Part shown: positions 14,203 to 23,990 of the stretch, piece by piece
Numbering within the stretch: the stretch's first letter is position 1
Layout of the letters: every line of letters begins with the position of its first letter
Assembly: GCA_020721965.1 (NCBI GenBank)
Contig: DYLS01000041.1
Location: forward strand, 1 to 40,453
Direction of reading: 5' to 3'
Length of the DNA stretch: 40,453 bases
Source: Blastopirellula marina
Lineage (GTDB): Bacteria; Planctomycetota; Planctomycetia; Pirellulales; Thermoguttaceae
Made by a program: the position numbers and the translations under genes
The notes under the pieces: generated by a model
The model's input: the letters and a program-made list of their open reading frames with translations, nothing else
Databases searched by the model: none
What the model was told of the DNA's origin: nothing

Positions 14203-14590
14203 CGATGGTTGCACCAAGGGGACAGCGCGGGGGAAGAATCTTGGCCTTCCACCACGCGACCGCGTGTGCATTCGCAACGGCATAGTCGATCCTCCCGATG
14301 GATTGGCGGTGGATTCTGCGTCACGGGTCGTGTCGCGAGTCGAAACCCAGTCTGTTGAGCGCCCGCCACGAACGGGTGATGCCTGGCGTCTCGCCGATCG
14401 TCGAAGCACGCGTTGGCCACGTCGGATGCGTGCGAGAGTCTGGCGGTGGCCGAATTTCGCCCGCACAACCCGCGATCGCCATCATCACCGGGCGGTGGGC
14501 GGGGGCGCCCCGATGGAGTCCCCTCTCCTCCAGGCGGTACAATATGGAGGGGGGTAGCGGCGCAGCCGGTTGCCATGAGAGCCGCTAATG

Positions 14591-14698
14591 CTACAGCGCA
14601 GGCTTGTTGGTTTGGATCCTCATCTTGCGGTGATGAGAGATAACGCCCCGCAAGAGATGCTGGGTAGATCGTGCAATCAGGCGGGCTTTGCGCTGTAG
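14591..14698 (+). repeat. 108-bp structured repeat, copy A
   Basis: Bounded by perfect 10-bp terminal inverted repeats CTACAGCGCA (14591-14600) and TGCGCTGTAG (14689-14698). Inside, CTTGCGG (14624-14630) pairs with CCGCAAG (14648-14654). It aligns without gaps over its first 95 positions with the element at 23708-23816 read on the minus strand. It ends 28 bp before the ATG at 14727 and would lie in that gene's leader in sense orientation. The remaining part of this gap (14203-14590) holds no supported gene; TACAAT at 14538-14543 is a possible -10 box. Confidence 0.8.
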
Positions 14699-14726
14699 TA
14701 CGAAGACCAGGTGGGAGACCCATCGG

Positions 14727-15227
14727 ATGAGTCCGCAAGACAAGTCGGCGTCGCCGACGCGAGTGGCTATTACCTTCGATTGCGTACCGCTTCGCACGGT
14801 GACGCGCAATGATCCGCCGCTGGACGCCTCGCCCGGATTCCTGGCACTGTGGAATCGTGTTCAGGCGGCGATCGCCAAGCACGGTCGGCACAACACGTAC
14901 TATCTTCACAATGGGCGATGCGAGTATCACCTGACGAATCGTCCCCAGGTCGGCTGGCTGGCGTTCGCCTTCGAGGGATGCGTGATGACCGACCCCGAGG
15001 ATTGCAAAACGGTGGCCTGCGACCTGGACGTGCGGCTGGCCGGCGATACCTGCGAGTGGGCCACGGAGCCGATCGTCCGCTGGTTTGCCGAATCGGTGCG
15101 CCGCTCGGTGATGGTGGAATTCGATCTCTACATCGAGGCGGGCGATTTGGAACGGACCGTCCAGCGGTTGCAACAATTGGAAGCCGAAACCCAGGCCAAG
15201 GGAGGCTACGTGGGCTTCGGGCTGTGA
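14727..15227 (+). CDS. protein of unknown function
   Basis: A 166-aa soluble product I do not recognise. It has no signal peptide or membrane helix. Noticeable parts are an N-terminal strand VAITFDCVPLRTV, a Cys/His-bearing middle (NTYYLHNGRCEYHLTNRPQ, EGCVMTDPEDCKTVACDLDV) and an amphipathic helix near the C-terminus (ERTVQRLQQLEAE) before a Gly-rich end. The ATG at 14727 is chosen because GGGAG stands ~10 bp upstream. Codon use and composition resemble the neighbours, so it looks like a resident gene. It stands alone, downstream of the structured element at 14591-14698, and converges on holB with a 61-bp gap. Confidence 0.75.
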   Translation: MSPQDKSASPTRVAITFDCVPLRTVTRNDPPLDASPGFLALWNRVQAAIAKHGRHNTYYLHNGRCEYHLTNRPQVGWLAFAFEGCVMTDPEDCKTVACDLDVRLAGDTCEWATEPIVRWFAESVRRSVMVEFDLYIEAGDLERTVQRLQQLEAETQAKGGYVGFGL

Positions 15228-17159: not shown

Positions 17160-17242
17160 GCAAATCTCGTACGATGCGGAACTGGAAAGTACCCTTCCAG
17201 CCAAGTGTCAAAAGCCGGCCGACAGCGGCGTCGCGTCCAACA

Positions 17243-17349
17243 CGACGGCCTAGCCTTGTTTGCTTGAATCAACATCTTGTGGGATTGGGCACAGCGGCTA
17301 GCAATCCGTGCCGCGCACATCATGCGATCAAGCGGGCTTTGCGATGTGG
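17243..17349 (+). repeat. 108-bp element, degenerate copy B
   Basis: Aligned to copy A (14591-14698) this stretch keeps the core landmarks at the same offsets: CCTTGTTTGCTTGAATC, CATCTTGTGG and TCAAGCGGGCTTTGCG near the right end, with almost equal length (107 bp). The terminal inverted repeat is eroded (CGACGGCCTA on the left, GATGTGG on the right). It lies upstream of tmk but on the other strand relative to that gene. The surrounding gap 17160-17689 holds no supported gene. Confidence 0.6.
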
Positions 17350-17419
17350 TACCAAAAGCCTGGCCGTCGGGGTGCTGAACGATCGACGGCATCCGCGGCC
17401 TGATGGCGAGTGCGCCGTG

Positions 17420-22470: not shown

Positions 22471-23658
22471 TTACGCGAAGGTGCGAACGGGTACCGCCTG
22501 GCCATTCCTTTCGGCCGAGACGTACGCGCTGTAGATCGTGGAGATGGCGTCGGCCGCCAGTCGGCTGTCGCTCTCCAGAGGCTCCCCGTAGGCGATCGTC
22601 CGGTAGAACGCCTCCAGCTCTTGGGGGTAACCGGTCATCCAGTCCTCGTCGGGCGACGTGCCGGTCCAGCCCTGTTTGGTGCCGATCTTTTCCACGGTGT
22701 AAATGTCGCGGAAATACTCTTCCTTGGCGTTGTACGTCATCATGGCCGTGTTGGGATTGATATTGCAAAGGGCGCGGTGATTGTTCGCGCACACCTCCAG
22801 CCAGTTGTGAACGCCCCCCAGCACGATGTCCGACGCGAAGACCGTGGCGATCATGCCATCGTCGAACTCGATGTGGATCATGGAGAAGTCGTCGATGTCG
22901 TGGTAGTCGCAACGGATGTGACCCAGGTCTTGAAATGTTGGCAGACGGGTGATGGCGTGGGTTCGGGCGGAAACGGCAACGGGGCGGATGGCCCTGCCCA
23001 ATCGTGACCGCCCCTCTACCCGTTTCAGATAGAGCGCCGCGGTCAAGGGGTGACAACCCTTTCCGATGAGAACTCCCCCCCCACAGAATTTCCAGAAGGC
23101 GTATTCCTCCGAATGGGAGCCGCTGTGGGCCTCTTCCCCGTGAATCCAGAGAATCTGCCCTTCGGTCTTTTCCAGGATTTCCCGTTCCTTTTGGATCGAG
23201 GGGGCGTACACCCAGTTTTCGGCGTACAGCAAACGGCCGCGGCTGGAGGATTCGGCCTCGAGAATCCGCTCCACCTCCGCCAGGGCAGCGTCGAGCGCCA
23301 CCTGTTTGGGAAAGTGATCGCCATGAAAGTCCGGGCTATTGTCCCCGAAGTAGCCGGTCAGGGGCTTCTCGCAAATTACGAATCTGTCGCTTTGCAGGGC
23401 CTGAATCGAGAAGGGCGCGTGCGTGACCGGCGGTGTGCAGACGTGCACGGCTTCGACCGCGTCGATCAGGGCCTCCAGGCTGGGAAAAGCGCGGATGTCG
23501 CGATCCCGGGCGAATTTCTCGGCCGCCTGGCCATTCCGCGAGTAGACCCCCACCACATCGACGTTCACTCCCGCCACCTTGCTCAACGAATGATAGTGGA
23601 AGGATGCTGAAAAGCCGCAACCGATCAAGCCACATCGAATGGTCTTCTTCGCTTTCAT
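22471..23658 (-). CDS. Gfo/Idh/MocA family oxidoreductase
   Basis: The 395-aa product has the N-terminal NAD(P)-binding Rossmann fold with IRCGLIGCGFSASFHY, VDVVGVYSRN, AVHVCTPPVTHA and the signature ICEKPLTG containing the catalytic lysine, followed by the C-terminal alpha/beta dimer domain (WIHGEEAHSGSHS, FCGGGVLIGKGCHPL, FMIHIEFDDGM-like strand). These enzymes oxidise or reduce sugars and inositols. ATG 23658 has GAGG 10 bp upstream; an upstream open frame would run through the repeat element D and is rejected. It converges on the secreted GDSL/DUF1080 gene, so a joint role in sugar-derivative use is possible but unproven. Confidence 0.92.
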   Translation of the reverse strand: MKAKKTIRCGLIGCGFSASFHYHSLSKVAGVNVDVVGVYSRNGQAAEKFARDRDIRAFPSLEALIDAVEAVHVCTPPVTHAPFSIQALQSDRFVICEKPLTGYFGDNSPDFHGDHFPKQVALDAALAEVERILEAESSSRGRLLYAENWVYAPSIQKEREILEKTEGQILWIHGEEAHSGSHSEEYAFWKFCGGGVLIGKGCHPLTAALYLKRVEGRSRLGRAIRPVAVSARTHAITRLPTFQDLGHIRCDYHDIDDFSMIHIEFDDGMIATVFASDIVLGGVHNWLEVCANNHRALCNINPNTAMMTYNAKEEYFRDIYTVEKIGTKQGWTGTSPDEDWMTGYPQELEAFYRTIAYGEPLESDSRLAADAISTIYSAYVSAERNGQAVPVRTFA

Positions 23659-23707
23659 GGTTGTTTGCCTCGAAATCGCGATGCCTACTCGGCGCCTTGA
23701 GTTAATC

Positions 23708-23816
23708 CTACAGCCCAAAGCCCCCCCTGATTGCGTTATCTGCCTAGCATATCTTGCGAGGCGATATGTCCCATCACCACAAAACGTTGAGCCAATCAAT
23801 CCGCACTGGGCTGTAG
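23708..23816 (-). repeat. 108-bp structured repeat, copy D
   Basis: Read on the minus strand it begins CTACAGCCCA and ends TGGGCTGTAG, perfect 10-bp terminal inverted repeats. Compared with copy A the eighth pair is swapped from G-C to C-G, keeping the stem. The inner stem TTTGTGG with TCGCAAG keeps all seven pairs through three G-U wobbles. The core GGTGATG, CGCAAGA, ATGCT, AGAT and GCAATCAGG is shared. The element ends 49 nt before the Gfo/Idh start codon, in sense orientation. The rest of the gap up to 23990 shows nothing else. Confidence 0.8.
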
Positions 23817-23990
23817 TATTCACTGGCGGACATGTGTGCCGGACCGCGGGTGCGACGGCTTGCTCAAGGGGGGGAATGATCATTGTCCCGGTGCGGAGAG
23901 GGTCGGGCAAGCCGGGCGAACGACCGGGGTAAGACCTGCGGCCAGCCGGACCCTCTAAGGCTTTGGCGAAAACTTGCAGCGGATCGGGAG

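Follow-up and report, generated by a model that had tools for sequence, protein, structure and literature searches.

A new MITE family with IS701-type ends behind a candidate leader RNA in Blastopirellula marina

Introduction

Two related, structured stretches of DNA, each lying shortly upstream of a start codon, raise the question of whether contig DYLS01000041.1 of Blastopirellula marina (assembly GCA_020721965.1; all 40,453 nucleotides of it are called the window here) carries copies of a leader RNA that is kept by selection on its fold, or copies of a mobile element whose transcript folds. An earlier note, which compared the two copies (A and D) by their letters, had left the choice at a leader RNA or a MITE. 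Our analysis of 130 copies bears out the second half of that alternative, through target-site duplications and a nested copy, and speaks against the first, for which there is neither covariation nor enrichment at gene 5' ends. We put a probability of about 0.93 on the reading that the element is a non-autonomous DNA transposon (MITE), now an orphan, spread by an IS701-type transposase whose source is absent or undetected here.

Results

Copies in the window

Copies A and D are present where they had been described, are related to each other and have inverted-repeat ends, with perfect 10-bp inverted ends in both (CTACAGCGCA/TGCGCTGTAG in A, CTACAGCCCA/TGGGCTGTAG in D), although their true ends lie farther out than the note had placed them, at 14589-14700 and 23706-23818. 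Copy A (14589..14700, + strand, 112 bp, 128.9 bits against the covariance model described below) ends in TGCTACAGCGCA and TGCGCTGTAGTA and is flanked by CTAA on the left (14585..14588) and CGAA on the right (14701..14704). Copy D (23706..23818, - strand, 116 bits) ends in TACTACAGCCCA and TGGGCTGTAGGA, with TGAA at its 5' end (23819..23822) and TTAA at its 3' end (23702..23705), both read in element orientation. These duplications are imperfect, agreeing in three of four letters in each copy. A third, decayed copy (17241..17351, + strand, 68.1 bits) lies between perfect CCAA duplications (17237..17240 and 17352..17355) and is antisense to both of its neighbouring genes. The pattern CTACAGC-N80..105-GCTGTAG matched the window twice and none of 100 shuffles.

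The distances to the following start codons, 28 nt for A and 49 nt for D, agree with our own gene caller, which places these starts at 14727 (+) and 23658 (-). The gene after A (14727..15227, + strand) has no Pfam family at E <= 0.001, and the gene after D (22471..23658, - strand) encodes a GFO/IDH/MocA oxidoreductase, as indicated by the gene caller and Pfam. The letters of the inner stems of A and D also match their earlier description, and the swap at pair 8, G-C in A and C-G in D, is real. Taken with short flanks (121 nt altogether), copy A folds better than shuffles by z-scores of -3.8 in sense and -2.9 on the other strand, and copy D by -3.4 and -4.6.

A dispersed family with target-site duplications

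The family is short, non-coding and dispersed, with 130 copies in 1,180,789 bp (covariance-model search of 61 stretches, window included; 131 matches at E <= 0.001, one of which was dropped as the antisense reading of another copy). The model was built from 27 copies, namely 30 loci minus L015, L017, L023 and L025, which were left out of the alignment without a written reason, plus D. Scaled by proportion, the copy density corresponds to about 545 copies per genome, an estimate that is probably too high because contigs in which copies had already been found were the source of the stretches. In the search of the whole genome, all 150 of the best 150 among 1755 first-look candidates matched the model, the weakest with E = 1.8e-15, while a search with copy A gave at least 40 copies, A included, among the best 40 of 230 candidates, and four further short antisense matches that reflect the palindromic ends. 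Among 40 genomes (best 90 candidates per genome), matches occurred in three, all of the same genus and the own genome included, with six matches in the sister species G002 and one in G001. A fourth genome of the genus, G003, has no match to the model, yet has elements with the same ends.

Lining up the copies gave consensus terminal inverted repeats (TIRs) of about 12 bp, TACTACAGCGCA/TGCGCTGTAGTA, and lengths of about 112 bp for the main MITE and about 105 bp for a subfamily B. The 13 subfamily B copies, chosen by a length of 114 among the covariance-model matches, show 89-96% identity with the consensus of their subfamily, and over the 104 copies, whatever their kind, that could be aligned, mean identity to a common consensus is 75.6%. 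This spread suggests older and younger bursts, of which subfamily B looks to be among the younger. Two further kinds of arrangement were observed. A stretch of 388 bp in the sister species G002 (L098:3023-3410; G002:C1:3117022-3117409) shares these ends; it is longer than the 112-bp MITE and may be an intermediate deletion form. At L068:10661-10902 and L071:14138-14375, copies in the same orientation stand a few bases apart, which suggests either that elements inserted more than once at the same place or that a copy was duplicated in tandem.

The letters next to the copies favour Y, T, A and R in turn on both sides, giving a 4-bp duplication with the consensus YTAR. For the 82 copies in which both ends matched at 8 or more of 12 positions, 18 had perfect 4-bp direct repeats against 2.98 expected (none of 2000 shuffles reached this), and 197 of 328 repeat letters agreed against 145.4 (sd 7.0). 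A first set of 53 copies (two of 55 were left out) had given the same picture, with 12 perfect repeats against 1.49 (0 of 2000 shuffles) and 117 of 212 letters against 87.0 (sd 6.0), while an inverted comparison of its flanks stayed at expectation. The other repeat lengths from 2 to 8 bp showed zero or slight excess in that first set, the largest being at 5 bp (76 letters against 65.7, sd 5.9). In the set of 82, 5-bp repeats agreed in 128 letters against 100.3 (sd 7.1), with none perfect, a small excess that may come from overlap with the 4-bp signal, and 2-bp repeats were perfect in 6 copies against 2.17 (30 of 2000 shuffles reach that). A CRESS-like nonanucleotide, attC and Helitron-like ends had been considered from the letters and were set aside once the 4-bp duplication was seen.

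Insertion into an identifiable prior sequence was found in one case, L074, where a subfamily B copy is nested in an A copy. TTAA stands on both sides of the B copy, at a site where the A consensus reads TTGG, and the letters of A resume beyond it.

Position relative to genes and stop codons

Genes were taken from our own coding-score caller rather than from annotation, and the caller misses some genes. Overlap with a gene exceeds 20% in none of the 130 copies, whereas at random places 94.2 (sd 4.9) would lie mostly inside genes. Because a gene split by an insertion would escape this count, the 150-nt flanks were also scored for coding: the same strand was coding on both sides in 1 of 124 copies, compared with 558 of 607 random points in genes and 10 of 422 in intergenic gaps. 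The copies do not interrupt genes.

Within the intergenic space, 120 copies (10 of the 130, at stretch edges, were dropped) were compared with random placement in the same space. The placement of A and D before start codons does not extend to the family: 13 copies lie within 60 nt of a gene 5' end, where 15.5 are expected. Near gene 3' ends, on the other hand, copies are in excess, with 44 inside the 60-nt limit against 15.4 (sd 3.7; 0 of 1000 placements). They are rarer between divergent genes (18 against 36.2, sd 4.9) and commoner between convergent ones (22 against 13.1, sd 3.4).

Part of the excess at 3' ends has a specific geometry. Among 109 copies with located ends (matching at 7 or more of 12 positions), a gene 3' end lies within 60 nt in 35 cases, and in 15 copies the stop codon coincides with the final three letters of the duplication (offset 0), whereas every other offset within 60 nt is represented by at most 2 copies. 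These 15 stop codons comprise 13 TAA or TAG and 2 TGA, and the two copies of the duplication still agree fully in 4 of the 15. The proportion, 15 of 109 or 13.8%, exceeds the 6.6% of YTAR words that are so placed among those available outside coding sequence (p = 0.006); an alternative count gave 13 of 107 against 6.1% (p = 0.014). Since a stop codon, TAA or TAG, is part of every YTAR word and is rebuilt by the duplication, a gene hit in this way keeps its stop, and we infer that such insertions are neutral and hence survive. The stop-codon cases explain only part of the 3'-end excess.

Fold and covariation

The consensus folds strongly, at -54.1 kcal/mol on the + strand and -43.4 on the other, because it is a long imperfect palindrome. 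The pairs themselves, however, are not conserved beyond chance. Pair tests used the 104 copies of 105 to 130 nt, leaving out the other 26 of the 130, and across 42 consensus pairs 2278 cells were Watson-Crick, against 2270.5 (sd 11.7) with shuffled partners. Covariation was absent from the TIR stem (982 paired cells, a value reached by 658 of 1000 shuffles) and from the inner stem singled out by the earlier note (546 paired cells, 587 of 1000 shuffles as high). At the double-changed cells of these two stems, 32 of 86 are Watson-Crick, close to the one in three that we reckon for independent change, and the G/C swap between A and D, read before as compensatory, thus belongs to no compensatory pattern. 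Nor does the retention of G-U pairs, taken before as a mark of selection on RNA, hold across the family: at the 33 Watson-Crick consensus pairs there are 204 G.U and 215 A.C cells, and as G.U is no higher than A.C, there is no preference for the sense strand. When all 42 pairs of the + fold are counted, G.U reaches 777 and A.C 220, the former because nine consensus pairs are themselves G.U.

Two further comparisons gave a similar result. The structure that RNAalifold gave for 27 copies was weak, at -3.27 kcal/mol with a covariation term of +0.21, and 2 of its 15 pairs were double-changed. Between the consensus of the own genome and that of G002, pairs changed on both sides stayed paired in 2 of 5 cases (A fold) and 4 of 8 (G002 fold), and pairs changed on one side in 3 of 15 and 4 of 13, respectively, which gives no hint of compensation. 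Rfam gave no match at gathering level in the window, and for 14500-14800 none at E <= 1 either. We detected no selection on an RNA fold.

A transposase partner

The IS701 family duplicates YTAR targets, and the YTAR duplications therefore led us to suspect this family before any such element had been seen; in the open-access literature we found no paper linking IS701 with YTAR. A profile search found no DDE_5 gene in the four genomes of the genus (G000-G003), three of which are in fragmented assemblies, where IS copies are easily lost. The partner is for this reason inferred from other genera. The end motif CTAATACTACAGCGCA, which includes four duplication letters and favours CTAA-type sites, was found with at most one mismatch in 30 of the 296 genomes and 20 of the 121 genera of the order, with 133 matches in total, 43 of them in the own genome. 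A reversed-motif control had no match in the own genome and, by our count, 21 matches elsewhere, in 17 of the 296 genomes, so single end-motif matches mean little.

Tracing this motif led to three insertion sequences with MITE-like ends in the genomes G047 and G116, which belong to other genera of the order. They measure 1547, 1547 and 1535 bp and carry TTAG, TTAG and CTAA, respectively, on both sides. Their gene (L140, L142) encodes a DDE_5 protein (PF13546, E 1.1e-72 and 4.1e-71), assigned by NCBIfam to IS701 (NF033540, 334.9 and 335.7 bits, cut-off 150), and a PDB sequence search with the transposase gave no match at E <= 1. PF13546 occurs in 72 of the 296 genomes, 68 of them above cut-off. 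Among 30 DDE_5 loci, four (L223, L224, L227 and L229, from the four genera g84, g60, g37 and g57) combine the two ends with a perfect duplication, while 25 were without a good end motif on both sides, this being the sole motif sought. One locus, L226, has ends with the 12th base A of the MITE, in which two letters are N, and has no duplication; most IS ends seen have T at this position. The likeness between MITE and insertion sequences lies in the terminal ~12-16 bp.

A scan of named genome contigs found paired ends in 24 stretches from 10 assemblies (counted by accession prefix), labelled Planctomycetota, Phycisphaerae, Planctomycetaceae, Ruminiclostridium, Bacteroidales and Lachnospiraceae. 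Their interiors are unlike that of the window copy (the best of them reaches 23 in global alignment, on a scale where an identical sequence scores 119), and a perfect 4-bp duplication flanks 12 of the 23 measurable stretches. The Lachnospiraceae stretch (L208), with two of four duplication letters matching, may be a chance match. In the metagenome-assembled genome (MAG) Ruminiclostridium sp. MnB_11, six stretches (L200, L211, L213, L214, L217 and L218) form a MITE family with the same ends, YTAR-like flanks and an unrelated interior, reflecting either a wide spread of these ends or a mislabelled bin. Eight MITEs with these ends from other MAGs (L198, L199, L202, L203, L205, L207, L212 and L220) show, by eye, near-perfect inner palindromes around GCATCTTGCC, and hairpin interiors therefore recur.

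Discussion

The history that best accommodates these observations starts with an IS701-type DDE transposase that would have recognised the MITE ends TACTACAGCGCA/TGCGCTGTAGTA, as the ends and duplications in other genera suggest, and would have inserted the element into 4-bp YTAR sites, thereby duplicating the target. The source of the transposase was presumably later lost from the genome, or was missed in the assembly, and with the source absent or undetected the copies would decay independently as orphans. Where a copy landed on a stop codon, the duplication would have repaired the stop and left the gene whole. It is conceivable, though on balance rather doubtful, that hundreds of copies persist partly through such landings, each of which would add a hairpin of ~112 nt to a 3' UTR, and that mRNA ends or stability are altered at many genes as a result.

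A riboswitch-like, cis-regulatory leader RNA, kept before start codons by selection on its fold, now seems extremely improbable. In its favour, A and D both stand in sense orientation 28 and 49 nt before start codons and fold better than shuffles, and copies in same-strand gene pairs do lean toward sense (24 sense to 10 antisense in the first 55 copies). In the larger set, however, the lean falls to 48 against 32 (p = 0.09), gene 5' ends are unenriched and divergent gaps depleted, covariation is absent, Rfam gives no match in the window at gathering level, and target-site duplications and the nested copy contradict it. What we found is a family of many copies in mixed orientation, with target-site duplications and without preference for gene starts, the very picture that the earlier note had set against an RNA. 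A milder version, in which the element is a MITE but its hairpin is used by the host at some sites, for example in 3' mRNA processing or as a stabilising element, is improbable too, though to a lesser degree. The accumulation of copies near gene 3' ends, of which stop-codon cases account for only 15 of 35, and the stable + strand hairpin of the consensus would fit it, as would parallels described in PMC10969869, where Correia elements are cleaved by RNase III and ERIC has an RNase E effect at 3' ends. Yet the orientations near 3' ends are about equal (24 same, 20 opposite), the pairs are not kept as copies decay, and avoidance of promoters together with the target word can explain the positions.

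Among mobile elements, two other drivers deserve consideration. YTAR-like targets are also known for IS5-group elements, and the four genomes of the genus yielded no IS701-type gene, so a MITE moved by a non-IS701, IS5-like DDE transposase would be compatible with the duplications; we regard this as very unlikely, given that MITE-like ends and a DDE_5 gene occur together in four other genera. We give still less credence, very little indeed, to REP/REPIN-type repeats moved by a RAYT (an IS200/IS605-like Y1 transposase). The MITE ends do contain CTAC/GTAG, and the own genome has one Y1_Tnp gene (G000:C109:8101-8319, L095), with the nearest MITE copy found in the Y1_Tnp stretch (L069) ~9 kb away. 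To our knowledge, however, the Y1 mechanism would not be expected to leave a duplication fixed at 4 bp, and G001 has one model match yet no Y1_Tnp match. PMC3733652 reports REPs in planctomycetes, but describes them as 20-40 bp long with an unpaired GTAG tag, whereas the present element has 112 bp with GTAG inside a long TIR.

The orphan MITE with IS701-type ends thus remains our reading, and its consequences are of three kinds. What could have been pursued as a new RNA class proves a false lead; the case illustrates that comparing just two copies can make a MITE pass as an RNA class; and it offers a testable rule, that a transposon whose target word holds a stop codon can insert there with the gene unharmed. 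As to novelty, we consider this a new MITE family of a known kind. The family is not described in the parts of PMC3733652, PMC4853749, PMC10969869 and PMC9208149 that were available, and we found no description of a MITE family with IS701-type ends in the open-access literature, a scope that leaves out ISfinder and most subscription journals.

The closest known systems are IS701 insertion sequences (NF033540; PF13546), which, like the MITE, have ends TACTACAGCGCT or CACTACAGCGCT and 4-bp YTAR duplications. They differ in being ~1.55 kb long with a gene, where the MITE has ~112 bp and none, and in the 12th end base, which is A in the MITE and, among the insertion sequences seen, in L226 only. 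Correia/NEMIS, ERIC, RUP, Nezha and Chunjie have ends and duplications other than those of the present MITE, which is further set apart from other bacterial MITEs by its probable IS701-type partner and its stop-codon niche. In general design they are alike, being non-coding elements of 70-300 bp with TIRs that are often intergenic, and copy numbers in the hundreds occur elsewhere too, as with the 711 copies of ERIC in Photorhabdus (PMC3733652 and PMC10969869). The REP/REPIN-RAYT systems, finally, resemble the MITE in that they are dispersed extragenic palindromes with GTAG at the end and are reported from planctomycetes (PMC3733652), but the MITE, for which no RAYT link was found, is the larger element and combines a TIR with a target-site duplication.
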